In this document: positions 3,923 to 51,800 of the stretch, piece after piece
How positions within the stretch are numbered: the first letter of the stretch is position 1
How the letters are laid out: each line of letters starts with the position of its first letter
NCBI GenBank assembly: GCA_963971285.1
Contig: OZ020246.1
Coordinates: 22,241,217 to 22,305,216, forward strand
DNA: 64,000 nt
Reading direction: 5' to 3'
Source of the DNA: Astropecten irregularis
Taxonomy: Eukaryota > Echinodermata > Asteroidea > Paxillosida > Astropectinidae
The notes under the pieces: model-generated
What the model saw: the letters and a program-made list of their open reading frames with translations, nothing else
Told to the model about the DNA's origin: nothing
Databases searched by the model: none
Made by a program: the position numbers and the translations under genes

Positions 3923-4084
3923 GGAATTCTCAAGAAATTCTCGAGAATTCTCGAGAGTTCTCGCGAGTTCCTCGAGAATTCTCGAGAGTTCTCGCGAGTT
4001 CTCGAGAAATTCTCGAGAGTTCTCGCGAGTTCTCGAGAAATTCTCGAGAACTCTCGGGAATTCTCGAGAACTCTCGAGAATTCT
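3923..4084. repeat. TCTCGAGAA/TCTCGCGAG minisatellite
   Basis: About 160 bp of imperfect repeats built from GAATTCTCGAGA, GAGTTCTCGCGA and related words. Each word is nearly self-complementary, so the array can form many alternative hairpins and is open in several frames on both strands. The resulting serine/arginine/glutamate/phenylalanine-rich frames are by-products of the repeat. Confidence 0.85.
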
Positions 4085-4695: not shown

Positions 4696-5550
4696 TACTT
4701 CTAGATTTAGAAGGCTACTCCGTGAGCCTTCTAGCACTCTTACTTTTCGGGGTGCCATAACGCTATGGGTTTTGAAAACAACAATTGATAGATGAAATTT
4801 TGGTGAAACATTGCAGCACCTACCGCCACTCCTAGATCGTGAATTCCCCTGAATTATTTTTTTTCCTGATCCTCATACATCGGTTATGCTTGTGCAGTCT
4901 CATTTTTGTAATTGATCCACAACTTTTCGAGAAAAAATTTGACTTTCTGTGTCACTCCACTTGCCGAAATGTCCGATGTTTACCTGCTGCTTGAAGTGGT
5001 CTAGTCCGCATGCGCATGATTGAATCTACCATTTTCTGAAGGGGTGCAACTTGACTTCACTGGTTCCCCCGGTTGCTGCATGCATTGAAATGAGTCTGCA
5101 TGTGCGTGGATACCAGTTGTTGAAGCTTTATCTTTTTTATTGAGGCTGGCTCCCACTTACTGTGTGGTGTGCATGTGGCATGCATGATTTTCATGTCTCC
5201 TTCAATAAGCACACCCCTATACAATAATGCTTTTGCCCATACTATAAAATTTATGAATGAACTCGAAATTAAAAATCTTTCCTGAAGTGGAGTGCCACAG
5301 AAAGTCGCATTTTTTCTCGAAAAGTTGTGGATCAATTGCAAAAATGAGACTGCACAAGCATAACGGATGTATGAGGATCAAGAAAAAAATAATTCAGGGG
5401 AATTCACGATCTAGGAGTGGCGGTAGGTGCTGCAATGTTTCACCAAAATTTCATCTATCAATTGTTGTTTTTAAAACCCATAGCGTTACGGCACCCCGAA
5501 AAGTAAGAGTGCTAGAAGGCTCACGGAGTAGCCTTCTAAATCTAGAAGTA
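4696..5550. mobile_element. 855-bp foldback DNA transposon, non-autonomous
   Basis: Two arms of about 267 bp (4696-4962 and 5284-5550) are inverted copies with only scattered differences. The ends read TACTTCTAGATTTAGAAGG and its complement. A 9-bp direct repeat, TAGTAGGCC, sits immediately outside both ends (4687-4695 and 5551-5559) and is the target-site duplication. The loop of about 320 bp has no transposase-like frame. Nine-base duplications with long inverted repeats are typical of Mutator-like elements, but without a transposase the superfamily is inference. Confidence 0.88.
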
Positions 5551-6233: not shown

Positions 6234-6258
6234 CCACTAGCGACCTAACTGAACCTAG

Positions 6259-6327
6259 CCGCGGTCTCAGCCGCGGTCTCAGCCGCGGTTTCAGCCGCGG
6301 TTTCAGCCGCGGTCTCAGCCGCGGTTT
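6259..6327 (+). repeat. CCGCGG 12-bp subterminal tandem repeats, left
   Basis: Six tandem copies of CCGCGGTCTCAG or CCGCGGTTTCAG lie 16 bp inside the left end of the giant foldback element. The order of TCT and TTT variants is the same, in mirror image, as at the right end (19885-19953). Subterminal repeats of this kind are often transposase-binding arrays in DNA transposons; that role is inference here. Confidence 0.8.
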
Positions 6328-6420
6328 AAGAAATGCAGAATCCATGCAGTAAAAGGAGGTATGATTTTGCATATTGAAACAACGATTTTAACCACATAAT
6401 TTAAAAAATACCGGCTTTTT

Positions 6421-8290
6421 TTGCAGATTCTAGTTTATCCATCCTTTGGCCAGATCATATTATGGAGGGGGCAAAATCCGTCCACTAATTATATGTTAAT
6501 TAGGGGTCTAATTAAGAGACCGCATTCCCATGCCTCTAACGCGGAATACGGTATAAAGCCTGAAAATACTGCTCCGTAAAAACAAAATGTACACCACATA
6601 CTTTTGAAAATGCTCATTTTTATTGCAGATTCCAATCAATCCATCCTCTGGGCAGATCAAATTTTGTAGCAGGAAAAATCGGTCCACTAATTATGTGTTA
6701 ATTAGGCGTCTAATTAAGAGACCGCATTCCCATACCTCTTACGCGTAATACATATGCGCCTGAAAATACTGCTCCGTAAAAACAAAATGTACACCACATA
6801 CTTTTGAAAATGCTCATTTTTATTGCAGATTCCAATCAATCCATCCTCTGGGCAGACCAAATTTTGTAGCAGGAAAAATCGGTCCACTAATTATGTGTTA
6901 ATTAGGCGTCTAATTAAGATACCGCATTCCCCTACCTATAACGCGTAATACATATGCGGCTGAAAATACTGCTCCGTAAAAACAAAATGTACACCACATA
7001 CTTTTGAAAATGCTCATTTTTATTGCAGATTCCAATCAATCCATCCTCTGGGCAGATCAAATTTTGTAGCAGGAAAAATCGGTCCACTAATTATGTGTTA
7101 ATTAGGCGTCTAATTAAGAGACCGCATTCCCATACCTCTTACGCGTAATACATATGCGCCTGAAAATACTGCTCCGTAAAAACAAAATGTACACCACATA
7201 CTTTTGAAAATGCTTATTTTTATTGCAGATTCCAATCAATCCATCCTCTGGGCAGATCAAATTTTGTAGCAGGAAAAATCGGTCCACTAATTATGTGTTA
7301 ATTAGGCGTCTAATTAAGAGACCGCATTCCCATACCTCTTACGCGTAATACATATGCGGCTGAAAATACTGCTCCGTAAAAACAAAATGTACACCACATA
7401 CTTTTGAAAATGCTAATTTTTATTGCAGATTCCAATCAATCCATCCTCTGGGCAGATCAAATTTTGTAGCAGGAAAAATCGGTCCACTAATTATGTGTTA
7501 ATTAGGCGTCTAATTAAGATACCGCATTCCCCTACCTATAACGCGTAATACATATGCGCCTGAAAATACTGCTCCGTAAAAACAAAATGTACACCACATA
7601 CTTTTGAAAATGCTCATTTTTATTGCAGATTCCAATCAATCCATCCTCTGGGCAGATCAAATTTTGTAGCAGGAAAAATCGGTCCACTAATTATGTGTTA
7701 ATTAGGCGTCTAATTAAGAGACCGCATTCCCATACCTCTTACGCGTAATACATATGCGCCTGAAAATACTGCTCCGTAAAAACAAAATGTACACCACATA
7801 CTTTTGAAAATGCTAATTTTTATTGCAGATTCCAATCAATCCATCCTCTGGGCAGATCAAATTTTGTAGCAGGAAAAATCGGTCCACTAATTATGTGTTA
7901 ATTAGGCGTCTAATTAAGATACCGCATTCCCCTACCTATAACGCGTAATACATATGCGCCTGAAAATACTGCTCCGTAAAAACAAAATGTACACCACATA
8001 CTTTTGAAAATGCTCATTTTTATTGCAGATTCCAATCAATCCATCCTCTGGGCAGATCAAATTTTGTAGCAGGAAAAATCGGTCCACTAATTATGTGTTA
8101 ATTAGGCGTCTAATTAAGAGACCGCATTCCCATACCTCTTACGCGTAATACATATGCGCCTGAAAATACTGCTCCGTAAAAACAAAATGTACACCACATA
8201 CTTTTGAAAATGCTAATTTTTATTCCAGATTCCAATCAATCCATCCTCTGGGCAGATCAAATTTTGTAGCAGGAAAAATCGGTCCACTAA
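6421..8290 (+). repeat. Left tandem array of a 200-bp unit
   Basis: The phrase GCTCCGTAAAAACAAAATGT occurs at 6571 and then every 200 bp to 8171, nine times, so the period is exact. Each unit also contains GGTCCACTAATTATGTGTTA and a GCATTCC...ACGCG segment. Two unit variants (GAGACCGCATTCCCATACC and GATACCGCATTCCCCTACC) partly alternate, giving traces of a 400-bp higher-order period. The outermost unit is the most diverged and merges with the terminal inverted repeat. The array ends mid-unit at about 8290. Confidence 0.93.
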
Positions 8291-8544
8291 TCATTTTCCT
8301 TTACAGTATACAGTTTACATTAAGTATAAAGGTTATAAAATACACGCAAATCTTGAATTTCAAACAAAAACATTAATAGAAATGCATCGATGAGCATGTC
8401 GTCTTTGTAAACAGCTTTATTTATAATTTTTGTATACATTTATAAAATGGTGTAAACTTTTTTAAAGTAGCAAAGTGTTAAAAATTGCGAAAACAACTTA
8501 CTGTGACTGTTAAGGAACACAGGCTCAGGATGGCGATGATATAA
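8291..8544. other. Left edge of the foldback spacer, no gene seen
   Basis: AT-rich sequence between the end of the left array and the first readable retrotransposon segment. No frame or repeat recognised. Confidence 0.4.
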
Positions 8545-8815
8545 ATGTAAATGACCCACATAAAATTGCTGAGCATTTCAACCAGTATTTTGTAGACATT
8601 GGAATAAATCCTGCCTCCACAAGTTCCTCATATAGTACATCCGATCCAATTAAATATATCAATGCTGACTTTCCCATTTCCTTATTCATAAGCCCTATTA
8701 CTCAGGAAGAACTCCTTGATTGTATTAATAAACTTCCTAATAAGGAAAGTTCTGGACATGATGAATTTGATAATATACTAATCAAAGATGTAGCTCCTTT
8801 TATTGTCCAACCTTT
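8545..8815 (+). pseudogene. Decayed non-LTR retrotransposon, segment upstream of and into reverse transcriptase
   Basis: Translation gives IAEHFNQYFVDIG, then ITQEELLDCINKLPNKESSG and a following aspartate-rich stretch. These resemble the N-terminal part of LINE reverse transcriptases of the CR1/Jockey type, where a phenylalanine-asparagine-rich segment precedes a pattern of the form I..L....S.G.D. The frame is interrupted at 8816 by a MITE half and resumes after 9005 with a large part of the reverse transcriptase missing. It cannot make an active enzyme. Confidence 0.75.
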
Positions 8816-9005
8816 AAAGATGATACCATAGTTTTTCATACTTTGGTTTTTATCAAAGATATACAGATTCATGGGCAAAAATATCAAGACAGATACAGTA
8901 ACAGTCATCTGTGAAAATTTCAGTCCCATAAGGTGCACACTTTTTGAGAAAACAGTGAAAAACGGCCACAGTATTTCTGAAGTCCTTTTTCTTTTATTTT
9001 TGATC
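8816..9005. mobile_element. Half copy of the TTAA MITE family
   Basis: The segment from TTAAAGATGATACC to TTTTATTTTTGATCTT matches one half of the TTAA-flanked MITE family seen complete at 20751-21108, including CATACTTTGG, ATTCATGGGCAAAAATATCAAG and GGCCACAGTATTTCTGAAG-like blocks. The other terminus is absent. It splits the retrotransposon remnant. Confidence 0.75.
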
Positions 9006-9523
9006 TTACATTTATATGATATTAGAGGTACAGCACTTGACTGGTTTAAAGATTACTTAGGAAATAGTTGTGTGGCAAAATAAAAAGTCTAGAAATCACT
9101 TAATTGTGGTGTTCCTCAGGGATCAATCCTTGGGCCCATCTTATTTCTTATTTATATTAATGATACTTGTAATTCTTCAAAACTTCTGACTTTTGTCCTT
9201 TTTGCAGATGACACAAGATTAAATTTAACAATAATGATTGATATTAAAAGGGTTGAGTCCTGTACCTTCCTGGGTGTCATTATTGATGACAAGCTAACGT
9301 GGAAAAATCACTGTCCGAAAGTTCTTACACTTGCAGCTCGGAACCTTGGCATTCTTAGAAAACTTAAATATTATGCGCCATCTTGTATCCTACTTTCCAT
9401 TTTTAATACATTATAATTACCCTATCTACAATATGGCATATTGCTTGGGGAAACACCCTCAAAACCCTTCTTGATAAATTGTTCATTGTCCAAAAGAAAT
9501 CCTTAAGAGTGATAAACGGATCT
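9006..9523 (+). pseudogene. Decayed non-LTR retrotransposon, reverse transcriptase core to C-terminus
   Basis: Readable blocks are GTALDWFKDYLGNS, then CGVPQGSILGPILFLIYIND, then LFADDTRLN, and finally ESCTFLGVIIDDKLTW. GVPQGS.LGP and the F-ADD catalytic motif are hallmark reverse transcriptase motifs of LINEs, and FLG..ID..L.W is the conserved thumb-side motif. Stop codons separate the first two blocks, and sequence is missing between the ADD block and the FLG block. At 9518-9523 the frame is cut by the insertion of another element with a GGATCT duplication and continues at 10789. Confidence 0.88.
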
Positions 9524-10782
9524 TATGGTGTTCCATTTGTGCCGTTAACGCGTCGCATTTCTTTTTGCCGTCGCATTTTTTTTTTGCCGTCGCATTTTTT
9601 TTTTTGCGCCGCATTTTTTTTTTCCGTCGCCTTTTTTTTTTGCGGCGCATTTTTTTGACGGTTATGTAAATAGTTATAAGGAGTCCTCTTGAATTTCAAT
9701 TTCCACCTCCATGATAGTGCTAAAAATTGCAAAAAGAAGCTTATATCAGTGTTATCGAGCCCAGAAAAACTTCAAGCGGCATACAGTTTGTAGTTTGTAG
9801 TGGGGGGGGGGGGGGGTTAAGATAGAAGGTAGGGTTGGGAGAGGGTCGTGGTATAAACGAAGGCAAAGAAATGTGCCCGCCCCTCCATAACTGCCCCTTT
9901 CACACCGGGCCTTACGTACAGTTGCGTAGCGTAGGGAGTGTACGCTGCCTATACGTTGCCCTACGTACGCTGTTCCTACGCTACTCTACGCAGAGTACGC
10001 AGGAGTACGCAGGAGTACGCGAGATGTACGCAAAAACTTAAACATGTTTAATTTGTTCGCGTACGTGGCGCAGAGCACTAGACACCAGACGTTATACGCA
10101 GTTTTAACGCAAGTCTACGCAACACTACGCTTCTGTACGCCATGCCTACGCAATAGTACGCTACCCTACGTCTGTTATACGCAACCTACGCGCCTGTACG
10201 CAAATAGTATTATGCTGGTATAGGTGTGCGGTGCCTCTGTACTGGGTACGCAACCATACGCCACACACATTTTACGCAGGCTCACCTAGAGTACGCAACC
10301 TTATTTCGACGTACAAGATACGCAACACCACGCAACTCTAAGTTGACCCGGTGTGAAAGGGGCTAATTAAACCCACATGCGGCGGACACAGGTCACAGGG
10401 GGAAAGAAACCAGCGGAACTAACATAATTAAGTGTGGAAATCAGTTAATTAACATTCCAACTGAGAAGAACAGGGGTGTTCCTTGCCTTGTTTCTAGCAA
10501 TGCCTTGCAGAAAATATAAATCAACCAGATATGTTAATGTAACGCGTTTTGTAAATAATGTTTTAAGCCCCCCCCCCCCCCCCCCCCCCGCATAAAAGGG
10601 ATACAAACAAAGGGCTCAGCATATAATCCCAAAAAAAATGCGACGAAAAAAAAAAGGCGCCGCAAAAAAAAAAGGCGACGAAAAAAAAAAAGGCGCCGCA
10701 AAAAAAAAAAAGGCGCCGCAAAAAAAAAAATGCGACGGCAAAAAAACCCGCTACGCGTTAACGGCACAAATGGAACACCATA
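9524..10782. mobile_element. Foldback element inserted in the retrotransposon
   Basis: The ends are TATGGTGTTCC and GGAACACCATA with inverted match extending through CATTTGTGCCGTTAACGCG. GGATCT is duplicated outside both ends (9518-9523 and 10783-10788). Removing the element and one duplication rejoins the retrotransposon frame without a gap, so the boundaries are firm. Inside each end are inverted tracts of CGTCGCA or CGCCGCA separated by runs of T or A, then a G15 run on the left (about 9802) and a C22 run on the right (about 10568). No transposase is visible. Confidence 0.87.
9893..10363. mobile_element. MITE with GCCCCTTTCACACCGGG ends, TACGC-rich interior
   Basis: The left end GCCCCTTTCACACCGGG and right end CCCGGTGTGAAAGGGGC are perfect inverted repeats of 17 bp. 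The interior is made almost entirely of TACGC and GCGTA words, with TACGCAGGAG repeated. It lies inside the foldback element at 9524-10782, making a third nesting level in the spacer. The flanks are similar but do not give a clean duplication. Confidence 0.8.
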
Positions 10783-10788
10783 GGATCT

Positions 10789-11135
10789 AGATATCGAGAA
10801 CACTCTGCATTACTATTTGTTAAATTTCGCATCTTGTCTATTATTATATTTGATCTGTATAAATATCATTTGTGTGCTCTTACATGTATCAATTTGAAAA
10901 AAAGACTTTGCCCTTAAAAATTAAATCCCTCTTTATAAAAAAACACGAATATTCATAACTACGACACCAGATCATCAAAGAACCTCCATCGTACTAAAGT
11001 TAGAACATCCATACACCAATTCACTGTAAGACACCAGGGACCCCTTCTGTGGAACATTATTCAATCTACCTTACCAATGACGTCTATCAGAGCATTGCAA
11101 AGGATGTTATAAAGAGCAACTAATTCTCTCTGCTT
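10789..11135 (+). pseudogene. 3' end of the decayed non-LTR retrotransposon
   Basis: This continues the frame broken at 9518. In shifting frames it reads the usual LINE C-terminal pattern: a short hydrophobic block, a tyrosine/arginine-rich block, then HQGPLLWNIIQS, which matches the G..LWN.LP motif near LINE C-termini. Frameshifts and stops are present. A poly-A tail cannot be identified. Confidence 0.72.
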
Positions 11136-11195
11136 ATAATCATTAATGGTAAAAATTAATTACTTATATCCTATTTTTTTTTAGGCATTATATGG

Positions 11196-11400
11196 CCCAC
11201 TTTTTGAGAAAACAGTGAAAACGGCCACAGTATTTAAAATCTTTTCACCGTTATTTTATACCTTTTAAAAGATCAAAATTGTTTTGGGTCATTGGTTTTA
11301 CTACTTTCTTGATAAATACAGCACTTCCAGCAGACAAATTTTAATGATCATGTTTATACCATCACAACTGGGTAAAATTTGGATTGGGTAAGGTTAATAC
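11196..11400. mobile_element. TTAA MITE fragment
   Basis: CCCACTTTTTGAGAAAACAGTG, GGCCACAGTATTT and TTTTAAAAGATCAAAATTG are blocks of the TTAA MITE family. Both termini are missing or degraded. It may be the complement of the half copy at 8816, separated by later insertions or deletions. Confidence 0.6.
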
Positions 11401-12010
11401 CCAACTTTTCTGTGTTGGAGGGCCAAAATAAACGTTACATACATTACAACACAATGATAACAACGTTGCATATAAAAATTATGCAAAAAAACATTGAGGG
11501 AAAAAAATTTGTACAAGCATAAAACAGATTAATGATAGCTGGTCGGGAGGGGAGGTATATACACCATCTCATGTAGCACGAGCAGCCACTACCAGAAGAT
11601 CCACAAAACAAGAATCGAAAATAAATACTTTGTTAACGAAACGTTCGAAGTAAACGTAAGGGAAGATGGAGTGGGGTTCACTGGCGTCAGGATGTGGGCA
11701 CATCGAGCCCACTTTCAGCCCGATGCCCCGGGTGGGAACTGGTCAGGCCACCGAGGTGTGCGGTGAGAAGGCGGGTACTACATACACACGCATCGGTGAC
11801 CTGGGGAATAAAACGAATAAATAATAATTTTTGTTGTTAACCTTCTTTATCTTGTGAAATGTGAACAGCAAATGAACTTTCGTAAAGATGCCGATACTGT
11901 GTTAAAATCCCCGCATACACAGTCATTACGAAAGCCCCGTAGTGCCATCAAGTATATATTCTGAAAAAGTGAAGTATATATTTCGAAATGTTTTTTCGAG
12001 ATATATATTT
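11401..12010. other. Foldback spacer, unresolved
   Basis: Part of it (about 11520-11820) is GC-richer than its surroundings and contains CCCGATGCCCCGGGTGGGAA and a tail of AATAAATAATAATTT. That could be the 3' part of a retroelement, but I do not recognise it. No open frame of note. Confidence 0.3.
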
Positions 12011-12122
12011 ACTACGGAAGCGCATTTCTGCCAATTACTATCTCGTTCAAACGACATAATTATCTCGTTTTGAACGACTTAAAAAATTATTCAAGTTGGC
12101 AGGAATGCGCTTCCGTAATTTA
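12011..12122. repeat. Short inverted-repeat element, TACGGAAGCGCATT ends
   Basis: ACTACGGAAGCGCATTTCTGCCAA at the left pairs with TTGGCAGGAATGCGCTTCCGTAA at the right across about 65 bp containing two ATCTCGTT words. The flanks carry repeated TTTTTTCGAGATATATTTT words from 11990 to 12300. Confidence 0.7.
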
Positions 12123-12609
12123 CATATTTGTTTTTTCGAGATGTATTTTTCAAAATTTGTTTTTTCGTGATATATTTTTGGGATCAAATTTCCTTCTTGT
12201 ATCTTTTTTTGGAAACAATGTTACTATTTTTAGAAACATTTTTTTTTTTCGAGATATATTTTAAAGATTTGTTTTTTTTTATAGATATTTCCAATTTTTT
12301 GTATGGGAGAACGCTAAAACGGCTGTTTTTCTAACAAGCCCCTCTCCCATAGACTGTGGTAAATCCAAAGACCGATAAGCAACGGTTGTTTTTGTACGTT
12401 GCGATAATGTAGGGGGTCGTCCATAAAGTACCGGCTCGTACGCACGAAATGCGGACTTTTTTTAGCCATAGCCAGCCCATAGAATATTGCGATACCACAC
12501 TCAAAATAATTTGCATGATTGAGACACAAGTATAAAGGGGAGGAAAAAATCATACTGTGTAACATGGGTGCGATGGCAGTGTTGATTGTATTATTTTTCA
12601 CCAGTTTAA

Positions 12610-12934
12610 AGGTATAATACATGACTGGTTAAGGTCAAACATGTACATGGAATATAGAAACCTGTGAAAAATTGAGTCACGCGAAAATAGTAAAAACCCG
12701 ACTCAATTTTTCTTATAAAACATAAAGAATGGTTTGGATATTACGCCGAGATCAAAACTGTTTTCGGTCTTTGTTTGACTTATTTCTGGATAAGTATTCT
12801 AGGCCTACACAATTTCAGGCGGAAGTATTTTAACAGTATATTTCTACCAGCACCATCTTCATACCCTGTATAAAGTTATACGTAAATCTATGAACATTTC
12901 TGTTTTGGTTTCTGACCGAAGTATGATACTACCT
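12610..12934. mobile_element. TTAA MITE, full length variant
   Basis: TTAA at 12606-12609 and 12935-12938 flanks AGGTATAATAC...AGTATGATACTACCT. Interior blocks ACATGTACATGGAATA, GAGATCAAAACTG, CCACCATCTTCATACCCTG-like and AACATTTCTGTTTTGG place it in the same family as 26953-27299. It lies in the spacer of the giant foldback element. Confidence 0.85.
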
Positions 12935-13004
12935 TTAATACATTTATACATTAATACCACCCCAGCAGTGCATTTAAATTGTTTTTTCGTAGCAGTTATA
13001 TACA

Positions 13005-16000
13005 AATTAGTGGACCAATTTTGCCAGCTACAAAATTTGATCTGCCCAGAAGATGTATTGATTGGAATCTGCAATAAAAATGAGTATTTTCAAAAGTATG
13101 TGGTGTACATTTTATTTTTACGGAGCAGTAAATAAGCCGCATATGTATTACGCGTTAGAGGTATGGGAATGCGGTCTCTTAATTAGACGCCTAATTAACA
13201 CATAATAAGTGGACCGATTTTTTCCTGCTACAAAATTTGACCTGCCCAGAGGATGGATTGATTGGAATCTGCAATAAAAATGAGTATTTTCAAAAGTATG
13301 TGGTGTACATTTTGTTTTTACGGAGCAGTATTTTCAGCCGCATATGTATTACGCGTTATAGGTATGGGAATGCGGTCTCTTAATTAGACGCCTAATTAAC
13401 ACATAATTAGTGGACCGATTTTTCCTGCTACAAAATTTGATCTGCCCAGAGGATGGATTGATTGGAATCTGCAATAAAAATAAGCATTTTCAAAAGTATG
13501 TGGTGTACATTTTGTTTTTACGAAGTAGTATTTTCAGCCGCATATGTATTACGCGTTATAGGTATGGGAATGCGGTCTCTTAATTAGACGCCTAATTAAC
13601 ATAATAGTGGACGGATTCTGCCTGCTACAAAATTTGATCTGCCCAGAGGATGGATTGATTGGAATCTGCAATAAAAATGAGTATTTTCAAAAGTATGTGG
13701 TGTACATTTTGTTTTTACGAAGTAGTATTTTCAGCCGCATATGTATTACGCGTTATAGGTATGGGAATGCGGTCTCTTAATTAGACGCCTAATTAACACA
13801 TAATTAGTGGACCGATTTTTCCTGCTACAAAATTTGATCTGCCCAGAGGATGGATTGAGTGGAATCTGCAATAAAAATGAGCATTTTCAAAAGTATGTGG
13901 TGTACATTTTGTTTTTACGAAGTAGTATTTTCAGCCGCATATGTATTACGCGTTATAGGTATGGGAATGCGGTCTCTTAATTAGACGCCTAATTAACACA
14001 TAATTAGTGGACCGATTTTTCCTGCTACAAAATTTGATCTGCCCAGAGGATGGATTGATTGGAATCTGCAATAAAAATGAGCATTTTCAAAAGTATGTGG
14101 TGTACATTTTGTTTTTACGAAGTAGTATTTTCAGCCGCATATGTATTACGCGTTATAGGTATGGGAATGCGGTCTCTTAATTAGACGCCTAATTAACACA
14201 TAATTAGTGGACCGATTTTTCCTGCTACAAAATTTGATCTGCCCAGAGGATGGATTGAGTGGAATCTGCAATAAAAATGAGCATTTTCAAAAGTATGTGG
14301 TGTACATTTTGTTTTTACGAAGTAGTATTTTCAGCCGTATATGTATTACGCGTTATAGGTATGGGAATGCGGTCTCTTAATTAGACGCCTAATTAACACA
14401 TAATTAGTGGACCGATTTTTCCTGCTACAAAATTTGATCTGCCCAGAGGATGGATTGATTGGAATCTGCAATAAAAATGAGTATTTTCAAAAGTATGTGG
14501 TGTACATTTTGTTTTTACGAAGTAGTATTTTCAGCCGCATATGTATTACGCGTTATAGGTATGGGAATGCGGTCTCTTAATTAGACGCCTAATTAACACA
14601 TAATTAGTGGACCGATTTTTCCTGCTACAAAATTTGATCTGCCCAGAGGATGGATTAATGGGAATCTGCAATAAAAATGAGCATTTTCAAAAGTATGTGG
14701 TGTACATTTTGTTTTTACGAAGTAGTATTTTCAGCCGCATATGTATTACGCGTTATAGGTATGGGAATGCGGTCTCTTAATTAGACGCCTAATTAACACA
14801 TAATTAGTGGACCGATTTTTCCTGCTACAAAATTTGATCTGCCCAGAGGATGGATTGATTGGAATCTGCAATAAAAATGAGTATTTTCAAAAGTATGTGG
14901 TGTACATTTTGTTTTTACGAAGTAGTATTTTCAGCCGCATATGTATTACGCGTTATAGGTATGGGAATGCGGTCTCTTAATTAGACGCCTAATTAACACA
15001 TAATTAGTGGACCGATTTTTCCTGCTACAAAATTTGATCTGCCCAGAGGATGGATTAATGGGAATCTGCAATAAAAATGAGCATTTTCAAAAGTATGTGG
15101 TGTACATTTTGTTTTTACGAAGTAGTATTTTCAGCCGCATATGTATTACGCGTTATAGGTATGGGAATGCGGTCTCTTAATTAGACGCCTAATTAACACA
15201 TAATTAGTGGACCGATTTTTCCTGCTACAAAATTTGATCTGCCCAGAGGATGGATTGATTGGAATCTGCAATAAAAATGAGTATTTTCAAAAGTATGTGG
15301 TGTACATTTTGTTTTTACGGAGCAGTATTTTCAGCCGCATATGTATTACGCGTTATAGGTATGGGAATGCGGTCTCTTAATTAGACGCCTAATTAACACA
15401 TAATTAGTGGACCGATTTTTCCTGCTACAAAATTTGATCTGCCCAGAGGATGGATTGATTGGAATCTGCAATAAAAATGAGCATTTTCAAAAGTATGTGG
15501 TGTACATTTTGTTTTTACGGAGCAGTATTTTCAGCCGCATATGTATTACGCGTTATAGGTAGGGGAATGCGGTATCTTAATTAGACGCCTAATTAACACA
15601 TAATTAGTGGACCGATTTTTCCTGCTACAAAATTTGGTCTGCCCAGAGGATGGATTGATTGGAATCTGCAATAAAAATGAGCATTTTCAAAAGTATGTGG
15701 TGTACATTTTGTTTTTACGGAGCAGTATTTTCAGGCGCATATGTATTACGCGTAAGAGGTATGGGAATGCGGTCTCTTAATTAGACGCCTAATTAACACA
15801 TAATTAGTGGACCGATTTTTCCTGCTACAAAATTTGATCTGCCCAGAGGATGGATTGATTGGAATCTGCAATAAAAATGAGCATTTTCAAAAGTATGTGG
15901 TGTACATTTTGTTTTTACGGAGCAGTATTTTCAGGCTTTATACCGTATTCCGCGTTAGAGGCATGGGAATGCGGTCTCTTAATTAGACCCCTAATTAACA

Positions 16001-16056
16001 TATAATTAGTGGACGGATTTTGCCCCCTCCATAATATGATCTGGCCAAAGGATGGA
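13005..16056 (-). repeat. Right tandem array of the 200-bp unit, inverted
   Basis: This is the reverse complement of the left array. TGGTGTACATTTT occurs at about 13101 and then at about 200-bp steps to 15898, fifteen copies, with one step about 3 bp short near 13600. Alternating variants (GATTGATTGG with GATTGAGTGG or GATTAATGGG; GTATTTTC with GCATTTTC) repeat at 400 bp, so pairs of units were amplified together. The outermost unit matches the diverged outermost unit on the left. A later element cuts the arm at 16056. Confidence 0.93.
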
Positions 16057-17157
16057 CAGTCAGTCCGCACTGCACACAATATCCGTTCCTTTTATATGCA
16101 GCGTATGCACATGTTTTCGGAGCGTGACCTCTCCATGAATATTTAATGAGCATGGGACAGTCTCAGGAAAACTGTCATTTTCTTTGATTCGAAATACCCT
16201 TTTGTCAAGATATTTCCAGATTTCTATAGATGAATAACAGCTCTTCAATCCAGTATGCAATATTAATATGTTTTTGCCAATTTCAAGTACAAAAATGGAC
16301 GTTGTTTTTTTCGTTAAAAAACGAAAAATTTTGGCCCTGAAAACATGGTCCTAACTATTATTTTTCAATGGTACCACAACGTTTTTTTGTACTCACCAGA
16401 AAGACCGTCTTATATTCTATCATATTCGTGTATTTATTGGCATTAATATCATTTAGCTGAGTCAGGGCACGCATTTTGCCAACACTTCTCACAAATCAAC
16501 ACGAACGTCCGTTCATGAGAACGGCGCCATTGCTGTGCACGGATTTCCTGATGTCTGATTGGTCAACCACGCTACGTCACACTTCTCCACACACGCACGT
16601 ACCCGGATGTAAAGATCGCGGTACGGTGTGTATGTTAATTGTGGGAATTAATGCACAAAATTACTATGATATAAAGGCTATGGTCTAGCTCATTAGTCTT
16701 CGGAAAACAAATCTATGGATTGTGGACAAGTTTATATTCTATCTTATATATGAAAATGATACTTTTAGAAAGTAATATTTGTTTTTAAGACGGACACTTT
16801 CAGGACACTTTCAAAGTGATGATAATGCCAAAATCAGAAAGCTATGGACATCTGCTTTGTGGAGTCCTAATTAACTTAATGCACACACACAATAACATAT
16901 GCAAGTGAACAAGACATGATTTCTTTCTATCAACAAATTAATTTATTAAGTCACATCCACTACTCATGCATGTTTCTTGACAATGTGTAACTTCCGGCAC
17001 TTTTATTTTATTTCTAAATTGAAATTACCATATTCAGGTGTAAAATTAAGTTGTAAAAAAATTATAAGTTGAAATTTCAACATGGCAAGCTACATTACTA
17101 ATGAAAAAAAGAAACACATTGGAAAAATAACAATATTATTAAAATAAAATAAATAAA

Positions 17158-17672
17158 GCATGACAAGGTTATGATGGAATTTCGTTAAGTTTAAGCTAAT
17201 AAAAACATTTAAGCTAATAAAAACACACACACAAATCATACCCGACAATATAGGCCAAGAAACTTAATGAGACAAATACATTGTCCCAATGGCAAGCTTA
17301 CATTACATACAAAAAAACAGTGCATTAATACAAAATGTTTACATGATACAATATGGCATAGTTTAGTTGAATGTTAAGGTAAAAGGAAATTCAGCTGCAT
17401 AACTTATACATGTGTATCTTTAATAATCACAACAAAGTTATGATGGAATGTTTCAAATTTATGATGAAGTTTCAAAAGTTAAGTTAAAAAAACCTACAAT
17501 CATACCCGACAATATTAGCAAAGAACCTTACTGAGACAAATAAAATTTCTCAATCGACAACTGCATTCATATAAAATTTCTTACCCATATGTTGGCAATG
17601 TTTACATGAAACAATATGGCATAGTTTATGGTTGAATGTGAAGTTTAGAAAATTCCGCTGCATAACTTAAAG
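17158..17672. repeat. Diverged tandem duplication of about 250 bp
   Basis: 17158-17410 and 17428-17672 share, in the same order, GTTATGATGGAAT, CATACCCGACAATAT, GAGACAAATA, GTTTACATGA.ACAATATGGCATAGTTTA and GCTGCATAACTTA. Between these the copies differ by many substitutions and indels, so the duplication is old. A fragment of the same block starts near 17081. Confidence 0.72.
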
Positions 17673-17814
17673 TTAATGGAATGTATGCGAGTGGTTTTTT
17701 TGTACATTTTCTGGCAACCATAATTTTAACAAGTACAAAATTATACACTAACAAATTCGCTGGAGAGATATAGAGGTAAGTACTTAATGAATCACCTAAT
17801 ACAAGAGCATTAAC

Positions 17815-17895
17815 CTTCCGAATCGGTTGGGACATTGCCTGCTGGGATGGCAATGGCGGTTTGGGGGGTCTGGCCACTTCAATGGCCGGCCTGAC
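17815..17895 (-). CDS. Putative exon inside the nested transposon
   Basis: The minus strand has a pyrimidine-rich tract ending TTGCAATGCAG, then an open 81-bp segment beginning with VRPAIEVARPPKPP and ending QPIRK, then AAG/GTTAAT. It is in phase 0 at both ends and would join in frame to the exon-like segment 19603-19674. The proline-rich peptide is not recognised. It may be a captured host exon or part of the transposon's own gene; chance is not excluded. Confidence 0.3.
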
Positions 17896-18363
17896 CTGCA
17901 TTGCAAAAAAAAAGAAAAGAAAAGAAAATATAAGACATATTACTGGATGTTTACCTATTATACTATAGTGTTCATCCTAATTACCGACCTTCGCCAACAA
18001 TTACTACTGACTATACAGACAGCTGCTGACAACAACTGAAAATAATAATTAATATTGCTAAAACATGCAGACCTTTCAGTTTCATAAAACTGCCCAGCAA
18101 TGAAACCAGTACGGGTTACAAGCAGATAATTAAGTGTTTGTGGGGCGAAAGCACATTTCCTGCCTAAGTGGTATTGATTGGTCGCCAAAATTATCATGTA
18201 GTTGTCGGTTTTTGCTAGTAGTTGTCAGTTGGTCGGTAATGAGTATGATTGATAATAATTGTTGGGCAAGTTTTATACTCTAGCTCAACAATTTTAAAAT
18301 TTTAGTAGAAAGAAGACTTGCAAACTACAAACGACCCAATAATGCAACAAACTGAAGCAGGTT

Positions 18364-18920
18364 AACTTGTACCGCGACCAACTCATACGTGACCAACTTG
18401 TACGCCGCTAAACTTGTACAGCCACTAACTTGTACACCGTGCCTTTAACCTCGTACGCCAACCATCTCGTATGATGGTCAACCAACTTGTATGCAACTCA
18501 AGTAATTTACAATTTTTCGAGATGTTGACTTATTTTTATATCGGGATTTTTCTGTGGGTTTTCATTTGAGGGATGTTTTTTTTCAGGACTGTGAAATAAA
18601 CCTATAAAAACTGTCTTTCCGGCTTTCCTTTTATGGGGAAAGGCCTGCAATTTTTTTTTCAATGGATCACGGGTTTCTTTTTTTTTGTAGATACATTTTT
18701 CAGCGATTAGTATCTTTAAGGGAAAAAACTTAGGAAAAAACTGACATTCCCGTTTATCCTTCAAGTTCAAAATGCATAACCCTTGAAATTCAGAGAAAAG
18801 TCATTTCATTGGAAATAGTGTACGAGTTGGTCGGCGTACGAGTTGGTCGGCGTACGAGTTGGTCGGCGTACAAGTTGGACAACGTACGAGTTGGTCGGTG
18901 TACCCATACAAGTTGACCAG
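18364..18920. repeat. Inverted pair of 16-bp minisatellites
   Basis: The left cluster (18364-18494) has degenerate repeats of ACCAACTTGTACGCCG. The right cluster (18819-18920) has GTACGAGTTGGTCGGC in the opposite orientation, with three near-perfect copies in tandem. About 320 bp of T/A-run-rich sequence lies between. The pair forms a small foldback structure inside the nested transposon. Confidence 0.8.
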
Positions 18921-19602
18921 CATTCCAAGAAAAATAAACTCACTTAGGCCTACTTAGGTAGGCTAGGCCCTATGGTTTTTTTCCATTCGAAAGAAAACAA
19001 TAAAAAAAAAAAAAAAAAAATGAAAACACGGCATGATGGTTAATTATCATTATTATGATTATGATTACTTTTATTATACTAGGCCCTTTTAATTAAAGCT
19101 ATAGCCTAGGGGCCTACTAATACTGCTATAGGGAGGGGCCTATTTTTTTTTTTTATTAATATTAAAATATTACATTTTAGTTGCAGATGTCACATGCATA
19201 TGTACTATGTAGGCCTATGTAGCCTAGGCCCACAAAAAAGGTTATGTGTGTACGGTAGGCACATCATGCACTTTGTATACGAATGGATCAAAACCTACAC
19301 GTAAATTGATGAAGAAAAACGAAATCTCGCAAAACAAAAACGATGTGTAAACAGTAAAATAGTGGCCGCCACAAGTAAAAAATTATATCAAACTAAAGCT
19401 CAACGAACGATCTTTCGAGTTATAGCCATAGTATTTCCTCTTTTTATTTAGCTGAGTCAGGGCACAGCAAATCAAATCAGGTCTAAAATCATCCGTAACA
19501 ACACCCGCTAACTTCGGTTGCCCAAAAAATTGCTAAAACACCGTTCAAACACAACAAATTTGGTATCAATCGATTCAGAAAAAATGACACGTTCACACTT
19601 AC

Positions 19603-19674
19603 CACGCCATCTTGGAAGCCAACTAAAGATGTGGCTGTAGTGCCGTGTGCAAAAACATCGTTGAACTCTCGCAT
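19603..19674 (-). CDS. Putative first exon inside the nested transposon
   Basis: An ATG at 19674-19672 with A at -3 opens MREFNDVFAHGTTATSLVGF and four more residues, ending at GTG before GTAAGT, a consensus donor. The frame ends in phase 0 and fits the acceptor of 17895. It lies about 100 bp inside the right end of the 3.7-kb element and is transcribed inward, a common position for a transposon's own promoter and first exon. No family match is recognised. Confidence 0.33.
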
Positions 19675-19884
19675 TTTAACGCGAAAATCTCGCGGACGAA
19701 TCACGCGCTGTGGCTGTGCAGATAAAGTTCGGGATTTGACCTCATTACAGCACGCAGTGCGGACTGACTGTGGATAAACTAGAATCTGCAAAAAAAGCCG
19801 GTATTTTTTAAATTATGTGGTTAAAATCGTTGTTTCAATATGCAAAATCATACCTCCTTTTACTGCATGGATTCTGCATTTCTT

Positions 19885-19953
19885 AAACCGCGGCTGAGAC
19901 CGCGGCTGAAACCGCGGCTGAAACCGCGGCTGAGACCGCGGCTGAGACCGCGG
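19885..19953 (-). repeat. CCGCGG 12-bp subterminal tandem repeats, right
   Basis: Six copies of CTGAGACCGCGG or CTGAAACCGCGG, the exact mirror image of the left cluster at 6259-6327 including the order of variants. Confidence 0.8.
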
Positions 19954-19978
19954 CTAGGTTCAGTTAGGTCCACTAGCG

Positions 19979-20750: not shown

Positions 20751-21108
20751 AGATAGTATCATACTTTGGTAAGAGACCAAAACAGAAATGTTCACAGATT
20801 TACGTATAACTTACAGGGTATGGAGATGGTGGTGGTAGAAAAATAAAGTACTGTTAAATCTTTTCCGCCTGAAATGGTGTATTTATCCAGAAATCAGTAA
20901 AACAACGACCGAAAATCTTTTTGATCTTTTAAAAGATCAAATATAAAAGAGAAACTCGCTTAAGAAATTCTGTGGCCGTTTTCTCAAAAAGTGGGCAACG
21001 TATGGGACTGAAATTTACACAGATGTATATTACTACATCGTCCTTGATATGTTTGCCCATGAACTTAATCTGTATGTCTTTGACAAAAACCAATGTATGA
21101 TATTACCT
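20751..21108. mobile_element. TTAA MITE, complete reference copy
   Basis: TTAA at 20747-20750 and 21109-21112 flanks AGATAGTATCATACTTTGG...CAATGTATGATATTACCT. The body contains ACAGAAATGTTCACAGATTT, GATCTTTTAAAAGATC and TGTTTGCCCATGAA blocks shared by all copies. The whole element of 358 bp is an imperfect palindrome at its ends. TTAA duplications are characteristic of piggyBac and Kolobok superfamilies; which one applies is not shown. Confidence 0.88.
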
Positions 21109-28100: not shown

Positions 28101-31100
28101 ATAAAAACGCATGGGACTCATGTTGTCTTTTTTAACAAATGATTTTTCTGCTAGCTGTTCAATCTTCTTGACTCTCAAAGCTGCATGGGGGACTTGTACA
28201 TGACCAGCCAAAGAAAGAAACAACCTGTGGCCTAAGACTGGCCTGTTGAAATTCATTTACATGGAACTCTTCCAAATTCGAAACCAACACTCTCAACAAA
28301 TGTCAAATTTTTCAACACGGGTCAACCGCTCTCAACCCACCTCACGAATAAGGTTATTTTCAACACGGGATGAATGCTATACATTGGTTCATGCCATGTT
28401 TAAATATTACAATGCAAAAGGGTCAGTCACTTTTAGGGTCAGAGGCTGGGCCAGTATTTAACCAGGAGATTTCTTGTATAGTGTGAAAGCCTTATGCAGG
28501 CATGCACCTTGGACTTAACAGAAAAACAAGAAAATTCCAATCTTCATGATACTTTGTACAATGTTTTTTACTTTTCAATGGTATAAGAGTGAAGTGAAAA
28601 AAGAGGAAATCAGCTGGTCCGAGGAAAAGTTGCATGTCTGCTTATGGAAAGGCTAAATCCTGCAGTCAACGGACAATGCCTATCCAGATGAAGATGATGT
28701 CAGTGTAAAGGATATTTGCTATTTTCTTGATCGTCTGTAACATTCCGAATGCTCTGCTGTACTCTGTTCCTCAGTTCATCTAGTTCTGCCTCCACATATT
28801 CCATCTCTTGTAATTCATCTTTCAATGACTCCAGCCTGTCCGATAACTCTGTTGTATTGCAGCCTGGACCAGCACCCCTGGAAGCGATGTCAAAATACCA
28901 AAGAATGACATCAGCTTTATTTTAAAGGTAGTATCATACTTTGGTAAGAAACCAAAACAGAAATGTTCAAGGATTTACGTATAACTAATACAGGGTATGA
29001 AGATGGCGGTGGTAGAAACATGCCGTTAAAATGTTTCCGCCTGAAATGGTGTATTTATCCAGAAATTAGTAAAACAACGACCGGAAATCTTTTTGATCTT
29101 TTAAAAGATCAAAAATAAAAGAGAAAAGACTCCAGAAATACTGTGGCTTTTTTTCACTGTTTTCTCAAAAATTGGGCACCGCATGGGACTGAAATTTTCA
29201 CAGATGACTGTTACTGTATCTTCCTTGATATTTTTGCCCATGAATCTGTATATCTTTGATAAAAACCAAAGTATGATACTACCTTTATGCTTTGCTTTGT
29301 TACCTGTTCCAGTCTCTAGTAACTTTCGGAGTTAATTTCTATCCTCATACAGTGGAGTGCCACTACCGAACATTTGGCTATACCGAAAATCATCTTAGGC
29401 TCTCAGTTTTTGTGTACAATACATACAGAATATGGTTCTTTAGATCAATATAACAAACGACCACTATAACGGACAATATTTGTGCATCTCATCATGTTCA
29501 TTATAGCAGCATTCTACTGTATACTTATGGGCATACATTCATTTGATTTGAGGATTGTATGCTGCGTGCTATTTGGTAAATAGACTTATTCATTGCTTAC
29601 GTCACAAACGTAATTTGTTCCATCCACCGTGCATTTTGGGTTCCATTCAGTTTATTCCATTGCATGCAAGGGACTTCAAAGTAATTGGTCATTAGAGGGC
29701 CTGTGTTATGCCCATGATCACTGCAAAATAGAGGCGGGTTAATGCAATCTCGTGTTGCTGAATAACGAGGAAACTGCCAAATGACTTGACAGTGTTATAA
29801 ACAAATAATGAATGTTTTTCATTCATGCAGTGAAAAAAGTATTTTTATTCGAAGAAAGATGAAATCTTCCATTCAACTCAAACTATTCTCACCATTGTAT
29901 TTAAACATTCATTATTTGTATATTAAATAGGAACAATTGGAACAATTTAAACAACCTGGTAATACTCACTTCCATTGTATACTATTCTTTGATTTCTTTT
30001 CAATTAAACCGATTCCTTCTAAGACATTTGTGATGTCATAAATTCTTCTCTTCTGTCGTACTGCTAATGTATCAGCTGCCTGTAATTGTAAAAAAAAGAA
30101 GATTTGAAACGTTGAAATGCAAAAATAGCTTGATAATTTAGAAGGAAGTACATGCACATACATACGTGTACACAACTTATTCAACTGATTTGAAGAATTT
30201 TCCTTCTGATATTTTGGTAAAACCCATAAATTAGTTGGAGCACTGGAACAAACCATTATCAGAAAGGGGAGTTGTTTGGTTTGAAGGGTGCGGTAGTGGT
30301 TTGAATATCAAGTCTACGTAAACTGATGTAGTAAAATTCTCATCCTTCAATCCATGTGCTAGAAATCAACAGTTTCCCTAGGCTTAAGGAAATGGTTGAT
30401 CCAATAGGATGATGGCTGCTGCTGCTACCTATATGCACACGTGGTTTCATCACTGCAAGCAGTAATGCAAAGATCAAACTGTCGGCAAGCTTGGGATTAA
30501 ACAAATCTTTCCTCGAATCTTTTCTTCAAAAACTGAAAAAGTTATTGCTCAAAACTGTCACTTAAGTTGCTTAATTAGAACTTCAGACAAGGATCAGGCA
30601 GAGCTCTAATTTAGCCGATATAATGATCTACAACAACTAAACTAATAATGAGATAAAGATAAGATGTTCAAAAGAAATTTCACAAACCAATTTCCTTTTT
30701 CGGCAATAAGCAATTTACGCCACCCCAAAATGTCACAGCCTACACTGCTACAGCCAGGGCTAGAAGGCCAAGGCCTAGATGGAAGTTCTACTATTCTGGA
30801 AACTGTACGTACCGTACAACTAACTTTCACCCAACTTCAACAAGCTCAAGAACACCTTCAACAAGTGATATTGACCTCTGTATTGTTAATCATTTAAGAC
30901 TTCAAGTTAAACGCAAAGCCAAGCCAAGAAGGGCCCTAATTTTTATGGTTAATTTGGACTTTTTTACTAGGAATCTTAATTCAACATAATGCTAGAAAAA
31001 AGGACTACCAACACCACTATGAATAGTATTCAGGGTGGTTGGCCTACTGCAAACTAGACAAAGAAGGCCATATCCCCTGTATCAACGACTCCCTACTTTT

Positions 31101-32085: not shown

Positions 32086-33752
32086 AGGTGAAATCATACT
32101 TTGGTTTTTGTCAAAGAAATACAGATTCATGGGCAAAAATATCAAGGAATTAGATACAGCAACAGTCAACTTTGAATTTTTTTGGCCCATAGGTGCCCGC
32201 TTAAAAAAAAACAGTGAAACGCCCACTTTATTTTCTAAAAGTCTTTTCACTTTTATTTTTTATCTTTAAAAGTTATTGTTTTTGGACATTGGTTTTACTT
32301 TTTTCTGTATAAATACAGCACTTCAGGCAGAAAAATGTTAAAGGTATGTTTCTAGCGACCATTCTTCATACTCTTTGCAGGCGCGGATCCAGGATTTTTC
32401 AAGACGGGGGGCACACTCAAAGTGGAACATCTGAATGTCAATCTTTCCTACCTACATGGTACATGGACGAAGATCCAATGTAGGCCTATACATACATGTA
32501 TTGTATTGTCACAAAATTTCATTGGTATCCTATCGGGCGAAGTTTTACGATATATCGTTTGAAGCATTAATAACTGTCATGACATAATATTTGTTACGCG
32601 TGTCATACTGGGGAGCAGTGGCGTACACATGATTTTTCCAAGGGTGTGTTTATAAAAAAGAACCTTGCGAAGCCACGGCGTGGGGTGCGGGGCCCGCTTA
32701 AGGGCCCCGAAACTTTTTTGGATATTAGATGTTCTCTGATGAATTCTAGAGTATTTCCGGGCCCTTTTTGATAGCTTTTTGCCATGGAAATAGGATGGAA
32801 TTTTTTCGTTTTATTTTTAATTTAGGATTTTAGAGACAAAGGATTTTTATATTTTGGGATGGCAAATTTGTTTTCATACAGTTTTCAGTTTGACGAAGGA
32901 TCAAAAGGAAATAATCATTCAGCCACAAAATTCCTTTTAACAATATTAAGAAATATGAAATATGATTATTAAACCATTTGCACCCGTTTTGAAGAAACAC
33001 GGCCAATTATTTTGTACCAGTTATCTGGCGGCCGATACAAAAAACATTCACACCCCAGGAAAAGAAATGTTTTTATACGCAACCGCGAAACTTTATAATA
33101 TTCACACCCGTCAAAATATGTCAAATAAATATATTCATCTGGCACTAATGGGCTTCCGTACAAAGCTGTGTAGTCGACATTTTGAAAATGTTTCATTTCT
33201 AATAATTCAAATGAATTGCTTTTCAATAAACATGGAATTTCAACAAAAATCTAAAGGAAACCCAAACAGAACGAAGTCTCGGACTTCCTTTCAAAAGTAA
33301 GAACAGTGTCCATTTATTTAGTGGAGTAGCGTTACCATGGACTAGAGGAAGGAAATACAAGTAATGTTTGGATCACTGCTTATAAAGTGATCGACAAGAT
33401 TAGGAGGATCGGACTGTGCCGCCCATCCGTACCGTACTCTGCTTCGTGGCCACGTCAGCAGCTGTGTACAGTGCAAAGGAGTTTTTGTTACCGTGCGCAC
33501 TTGTAAAAAGGCGAGCCGAGACATTTGCCTGTTGTAAGTTTTTCTTTGTGTGGCCGATAGAATGAACTGAAGAATAATGATTTTCTGCTCCTCTTCCTTC
33601 TGTCTCCTTTTATCTTTCACCTCGTCAAATTTGACCGGGGGGCACGTGCCCCCGCGGCCCACCCCTGGATCCGCGCGTGCTTTGAGTTGTAGATAAATCT
33701 GTGATAGTGTGAAGATTTCTGTTTCGGTATGCTATAAAAGTATGATAGCTCC
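32086..33752. mobile_element. TTAA MITE split by a hAT-like insertion
   Basis: TTAA (32082-32085) then AGGTGAAATCATACTTTGG starts the MITE. Its body runs to ATTCTTCATACTCTTTG at 32377 and resumes at 33685 with AGTTGTAGATAAATCTGTG...AAAGTATGATAGCT. The right terminus is degraded and no TTAA remains there. Confidence 0.8.
32378..33679. mobile_element. hAT-like non-autonomous element
   Basis: Ends CAGGCGCGGATCCAGG and CCCCTGGATCCGCGCGTG are inverted repeats; CTTTG is repeated outside (32373-32377 and 33680-33684). Termini of the type CAGGGGCGGATCCAGG are familiar from animal hAT elements; a 5-bp duplication is atypical for classical hAT (8 bp) but reported for some subgroups. A G-run/C-run inverted pair lies just inside both ends. 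About 1.3 kb with no transposase frame; an internal CAGTGGCGTACACATG at 32616 may mark a further nested terminus. Confidence 0.75.
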
Positions 33753-45528: not shown

Positions 45529-45719
45529 AGGTTGTATCATACTTTGGTAAGAGACCAAAACAGAAATGTTCACAGATTTACTTATAACTTTCAGGGTATG
45601 AAGATGATGCTGGTAGAAACCTACCGAAAATTTCACAGATTACTTTTACTGTATCTTCCTTGATATTTTTGCCCATGAATCTGTATTTCTTTGACAAAAA
45701 CCAAAGTATGATACTACCT
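45529..45719. mobile_element. TTAA MITE, internally deleted copy
   Basis: TTAA (45525-45528, 45720-45723) flanks AGGTTGTATCATACTTTGG...CCAAAGTATGATACTACCT; 191 bp, so the central half is missing, with a junction near GAAACCTACCGAAAATTTCAC. Confidence 0.88.
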
Positions 45720-51182: not shown

Positions 51183-51800
51183 GAGCCAATTTCATGAAGG
51201 TAGTTTCTGTTAAAGGTAGTATCATACTTTTGTATAACATACCGAAACAGAAATCTTCATAGATTTACATGTACCTATAACTTAAAGGGTATGAAGATGG
51301 TGATGGTAGAAACATACCGTTAAAATTGTTCTGCCTGAAATGCTGTATTTATCCAGAAAAGAGTAAAAATCAGTGACCAAAATTATTTTTGATCTTTTAA
51401 AAATAAAAAATTAAAGAGAAAAGACTTAAGAAAAACTGTGGCCGTTTTTCACCATTTTCTAAAAAAGTGGGCACCGTGTGGGGCTGAAATTTTCACAGAT
51501 GACTGTTATTGTATCTTCCTTGATATTTTTGCCCATGAATCTGTATTTCTTTGGCAATAACCAAAGTATGATATTCCTTTAAGCACAAAAAAAATGATTA
51601 GCACAAAATGTCTTGCTCAATAAAACAAACCACCATTAAAAATTCCATTTGATATTCATGGTCAGCGTACAACAGCCAAAGAACAATCGCAAGTGATACA
51701 CAACACATGGAAATATGGTTGTCAAATAATCCTTTGATTAAGACAGAAATTTCATGGTTAGCAAATTTGTGTGCTTAGCAGGACCGTGAAGTTGTGTGTC
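51183..51800. mobile_element. GGGGCCAATTTCA MITE split by a TTAA MITE
   Basis: GGAGCCAATTTCATGAAGG at the left; after the TTAA MITE the sequence resumes with GCACAAAAAAAATGATTAGC and runs to CTTAGCAGGACCGTGAAGTTG. In reverse complement this matches the 56735 and 60200 copies block by block (CAGACATGGAAAT-like, CCATTTGATATTCATGGTCAGC). Confidence 0.75.
51214..51578. mobile_element. TTAA MITE nested in another MITE
   Basis: TTAA (51210-51213, 51579-51582) flanks AGGTAGTATCATACTTTTG...CCAAAGTATGATATTCCT, 365 bp. It is younger than the GGGGCCAATTTCA element it interrupts. Confidence 0.87.

Follow-up and report, generated by a model that had tools for sequence, protein, structure and literature searches.

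The 64,000-nucleotide window analysed here, from the sea star Astropecten irregularis (contig OZ020246.1, positions 22,241,217 to 22,305,216), carries one of at least eight copies of a dispersed element, inside which satellite-like arrays of 200-bp units form two arms in opposite orientation. With a probability that we put at about 85%, these copies constitute a non-autonomous family of foldback DNA transposons, moved by a transposase encoded at some other locus. The features that characterize this class, long inverted arms of tandem repeats, target-site duplication and dispersed copies, were all observed. Coordinates are positions in the window unless stated otherwise.

We first describe the window copy. 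Its inverted ends start at 6243 and finish at 19969, and the outermost 199 bp are identical at both ends, 6243-6441 being the reverse complement of 19771-19969 (the BLAST row for the ends has 200 columns, 6242-6441 against 19970-19771, of which 1 lies beyond the element). A perfect 9-bp target-site duplication, CCACTAGCG, stands on either side, and the ends of the family are of the type ACCTAACTGAACCTAG. The limits, mirror-image ends and 9-bp flanking duplication proposed in an earlier note, made from the letters of the window alone, were thus recovered. Similarly, its description of opposite 200-bp arrays of about 9 and 15 copies sharing a diverged outermost unit agrees with our analysis, in which the repeat finder gave 9.4 copies for the left array (6416-8291, unit similarity beginning already at 6391) and 15.3 for the right, with 96% matches among units. 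The segment 14200-16056 is an inverted repeat of 6438-8294 at 98%. The outermost units of the two window arms have their many variants in common, and the arms correspond in units 2 and 3 as well. Outside the arrays lies an outer domain of 148 bp.

The 198-bp end was then searched across the whole assembly (475.7 Mb, 168 contigs), all counts being lower bounds. At least 23 matches were obtained; they form eight elements that have both ends, plus a 63-bp fragment on C20. A second copy of the ends, which had been set beforehand as the thing to look for in the host assembly, was therefore found several times over: at least seven paired copies lie beyond the window, on five contigs. The foldback transposon claimed in the earlier note is supported by these eight or more paired copies, by target-site duplications in seven of eight (six of 9 bp, and one of 8 bp in the copy c10a) and by a core common to six of eight. 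As a chance control for the duplications, none of the 56 mismatched pairs of left and right flanks from the eight copies agreed over 9 bp.

Tandem arrays are present in both arms of all eight copies. The copies measure, with left/right unit numbers in brackets, 13,727 bp for the window copy (9.4/15.3), 14,751 bp (21.4/27.3), 12,670 bp (13.4/24.4), 1,292 bp (3.5/1.5), 12,713 bp (20.4/18.4), 16,346 bp (27.4/25.4), 8,934 bp (8.4/3.5) and 1,531 bp (4.3/1.7). Arms hence range from 1.5 to 27.4 units, the longest reaching about 5.7 kb, and the outer domain holds 3 to 18 of the 12-bp repeats per arm (15 arms, the right arm of the window being left out). In the 1.3- and 1.5-kb copies the core is absent and the arms are joined head to head; in c1b this join, read by eye, falls at CTAATTAA, which occurs in both arms.

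We then examined how the arrays relate to each other. The boundary between array and core, read by eye, falls at the same unit phase in both arms of all six cored copies. Each of the 16 outermost units lies nearer to its outermost counterparts (2.2-5.8%) than to internal units, of which 185 from long arms were compared (9.2-13.7%). In nine of 11 long arms, the mean difference between two units is above 5 changes per ~180 compared bases, roughly 3% or more. Several unit types are probably older than the dispersal of the copies, because these unit differences exceed the differences of 1-2% between cores; the reservation is that arrays may change at another rate than cores. Exact copies of a unit type in more than one element (6 of 125 types, from 218 of 221 units after three short units were omitted) were weighed as a sign of short founder arms; this argument was dropped, since with cores ~2% apart exact twins would be rare anyway.

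Within an element, the two arms resemble each other. Among the five elements in which both arms are long, the true pairing of left and right arms was the lowest of 120 both for the outermost unit and for whole arrays, and for the innermost unit 4 of 120 pairings were as low as the true one. Mean distances, in changes per unit, were 2.4 between left and right arms of the same element, 4.5 between left arms of different elements and 3.4 between right arms. Some matching of an element's two arms after insertion is thus likely on these comparisons, because mere divergence would leave same-side arms of different copies closer. In a tree of 199 units the nearest relatives fell in the same arm for 103.8, in the opposite arm for 43.4 and in other elements for 51.8, against 20.7, 20.7 and 157.6 expected from the numbers. 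Blocks of 3 to 7 units repeat within 10 of 11 long arms, at spacings that vary between arms, a count made without a chance control.

Several observations weigh against the transposon family as we read it, and against matching of its arms. One copy, c19, has no target-site duplication. The scanned frames of the core hold no transposase, so that the superfamily can only be inferred. The pairing test excluded the short-armed c10b, c1b and c19, and pairings as low as the true one numbered 12, 36 and 94 of 120 for the second, third and penultimate units. In c9b the left arm has slightly closer partners in the right arms of c8 and c1a than in its own right arm. Collinear runs between left and right arms extended over at most 2, 2, 6, 1 and 2 units, and over 2, 3, 6, 1 and 2 in reversed order; long tracts copied between arms were rejected for want of a collinear excess over this control. 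Outer end parts are only slightly closer within elements (96.5-100%, 7 pairs, the interrupted pair of the window being excluded) than between elements (mean 96.9%, range 93.4-99.7%, 98 pairs).

The cores of the six copies that share one are 97.8-98.9% alike over 4,378 gap-free columns and form three sister pairs, one of which has a common insertion of ~635 bp, one member carrying an additional insertion of ~886 bp. We scanned with Pfam all 17 stop-to-stop frames of at least 80 amino acids that overlap the core (11) or a 3,714-bp insertion in the right arm (6) of the window copy. No transposase was found in these 17 frames, and accordingly none in the six of the insertion. The RVT_1 match in the core (E 1e-6, 29.1 bits) lies just below the curated cut-off of 29.6, and three further matches, to DUF3678, zf-nanos and a C2H2 zinc finger, were weak and below cut-off. 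The copies are probably moved in trans, because no transposase was detected in the open frames of core and insertion. Separately, a dispersed repeat has one copy in the core (8836-9007) and others at 20978-21100, 29105-29276, 32094-32266, 45623-45711 and 51400-51571.

The 3,714-bp insertion bears on the size of the element. The junction without it (at most 4 mismatches) was recovered in 13 of 16 family arms, the left arm of the window among them; both c19 arms gave no match, and the right arm of the window carries the interruption. A single element of 13.7 kb is ruled out by this nested 3.7-kb insertion, and the foldback element proper is ~10.0 kb, without the insertion and one TGGA, because the inserted segment is a separate one. 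The word 'giant' in the earlier note is consequently borne out in part, 3.7 kb of the span of the window copy being foreign, although two copies reach 14.8 and 16.3 kb without such an interruption. Inside the insertion, at ~18364-18903, 16-bp tandem repeats form a smaller inverted pair. Feature coordinates are collected in Table 1.

Table 1. Features of the foldback element in the 64,000-nucleotide window
Feature	Position	Strand	Remarks
Left copy of 9-bp target-site duplication	6234..6242	.	sequence CCACTAGCG
Left outer domain	6243..6390	+	14-bp terminal motif; ~6 copies of a 12-bp repeat (6257-6325); flanking stretch before the first 200-bp unit
Left arm array	6391..8291	+	200-bp units, outermost one diverged
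Core	8292..13004	.	4.7 kb, common to six of eight copies; older repeats inside; no transposase in scanned open frames
Broken reverse-transcriptase remnant in core	8514..9416	+	RVT_1 match in 9093-9413
Second, smaller inverted-repeat element nested in core	9524..10782	.	18-bp tandem repeats in arms; 6-bp duplication GGATCT
Right arm array	13005..16056	-	200-bp units, ~15.3 copies, orientation opposite to left arm
Separate 3,714-bp insertion within outermost unit of right arm	16057..19770	.	foreign to the foldback element; 17-bp terminal inverted repeats; 4-bp duplication TGGA
Right end: rest of outermost unit and outer domain	19771..19969	-	reverse complement of 6243-6441
Right copy of 9-bp target-site duplication	19970..19978	.	

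Elsewhere in the window we observed an inverted repeat (4696-4962 against 5285-5550; 267 columns, 96.6% alike), perhaps another small inverted-repeat element, and a tandem array of the 10-bp unit GAATTCTCGA at 3924-4084. An open frame on the minus strand, 29966-30307, matches the E2F/DP winged-helix domain (PF02319, E 7.4e-17) and probably represents an exon of a host gene of E2F type. Outside the window, contig C168 of the assembly (16,335 bp) begins with tRNA-Phe; a match to large-subunit rRNA and frames identified by eye as ND2 and ND1 lie on its reverse strand, and a COI frame on the forward strand, an order typical of starfish.

A simple model of the family would involve a transposase most likely of the Mutator-like (MULE/Phantom) superfamily; target-site duplications of 8-10 bp are a MULE feature, and those found here measure 8-9 bp in seven of eight copies. 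Such a transposase would act on the outer ends, and perhaps also on repeats within the arms, so that the whole unit moves. From the unit comparisons, the founder arms would already have carried a diverged outermost unit and, further in, several unit types. Blocks of units would subsequently be gained and lost in the arrays, and unit variants would come to be shared by both arms of an element, giving each insertion its own variant set. The 1.3- and 1.5-kb copies would be probable deletion derivatives. More tentatively, and with the odds somewhat against it, each insertion could be a separate replicate of satellite evolution, in which a mobile founder brings mirror-image arrays to a new site, where the arms expand to kilobase length and acquire block patterns of their own, mutually matched. 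If so, the copies within one genome, dated by their common core, would provide a direct clock for the rise of satellite variants. The earlier note further suggested that the locus may be a source of dispersed satellite DNA, and the arrays do lie within a dispersed element; if transcribed through, the locus might in the view of that note also yield hairpin RNA that could feed small-RNA silencing.

Among other explanations, the best placed concerns the origin of the array: a small transposon may have captured a pre-existing genomic satellite, as opposed to the array having grown inside the transposon. For other systems it has been proposed that a mobile element captured a tandem repeat (review PMC12628747), and the array is present in all eight copies, as capture would have it. 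The shared diverged outermost unit and the same core phase in the six cored copies point instead to one founding structure, with which an earlier capture is still compatible; we consider capture rather unlikely.

Unlikely as well, and slightly more so, is a foldback element of a superfamily other than MULE, for example P (like Galileo) or hAT, both of which usually make 8-bp target-site duplications. One Galileo subfamily does have ~210-bp repeats in its long arms (PMC3573991), and the tandem repeats of Galileo arms contain transposase binding sites (PMC3688188); by analogy, the arm repeats here may serve as such sites too. The duplications of Galileo are of 7 bp (PMC3573991), whereas those found here are of 9 bp in six cases of seven and of 8 bp in one.

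Two explanations without transposition are very improbable. Dispersal of a larger region by segmental duplication would suit core differences of only ~1-2%, but the flanks are nearly unrelated: over up to 600 bp per side, the eight copies gave two short shared hits only, of 27 and 73 bp, in each case between c10a and c10b. Inverted satellite arrays are hard to assemble, which makes it conceivable that ordinary arrays came to lie head to head through an assembly error or a local inversion, with no mobile element; this is a poor explanation because at least eight paired copies have the same ends, duplications of 8-9 bp at seven of eight sites, a common core in six and the same array/core junctions in all six of these.

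The non-autonomous foldback family can be compared with known systems, most closely with Tetris, a foldback transposon of Drosophila virilis (PMC4079207). Tetris has a terminal flanking domain followed by a variable number of ~220-bp tandem repeats and a variable non-coding middle; its duplications are of 8-10 bp, no transposase was found, two alleles differ in repeat number, and free arrays of the repeat are reported (PMC4079207). The flanking domain, ~200-bp units and non-coding middle are found here as well, as a likeness of layout, the core here holding a broken reverse-transcriptase remnant. Arms of up to 1,735 bp are stated for Tetris (PMC4079207), against ~5.7 kb and 27 units here. Unlike Tetris, as described in the accessible part of that paper, the sea-star element has an outer domain with 12-bp repeats of its own and one 4.7-kb core in six of eight copies. 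The remark in the earlier note that satellite arms on this scale are uncommon was fair, with the reservation that the same layout, with ~220-bp units, is known in Tetris (PMC4079207).

Other likenesses concern Mutator-like elements. Muta1, an active element of Aedes aegypti, has 145-bp ends with nine 12-bp repeats, makes 8- or 9-bp duplications and has non-autonomous copies with varied interiors (PMC5225508). Similarly, short repeats in an outer domain (148 bp, about six 12-bp repeats), 8-9-bp duplications and mixed interiors are found here. Muta1 differs in having a transposase, none being found here in the scanned frames, and no 200-bp arrays are noted for it in the accessible part of its description (PMC5225508). 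Tm1, also Mutator-like, makes 9-bp duplications and has composite ends with tandem repeats (PMC3169594), as the present family has mostly 9-bp duplications and tandem repeats in its ends. Galileo subfamily F of Drosophila mojavensis carries ~210-bp tandem repeats in long arms, their number unequal between arms, and differs in having two or three repeats only, in its P superfamily membership and in its 7-bp duplications (PMC3573991).

The element is thus of a known structural kind, the Tetris type, here with arms exceeding the length stated for Tetris. Echinoderm foldback elements are known that have short tandem repeats (~15 bp) in the outer part of long arms and 8-bp duplications. The Tetris paper lists sea urchin among foldback hosts (PMC4079207), and the open-licence PMC literature, surveyed in part, gave no report of such a foldback element from a sea star. 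Tetris-type elements, described from flies, would accordingly extend to a sea star, in a form whose arms are longer and whose shared core can date the copies, and the growth and matching of transposon-borne satellite arrays would become measurable within one genome.

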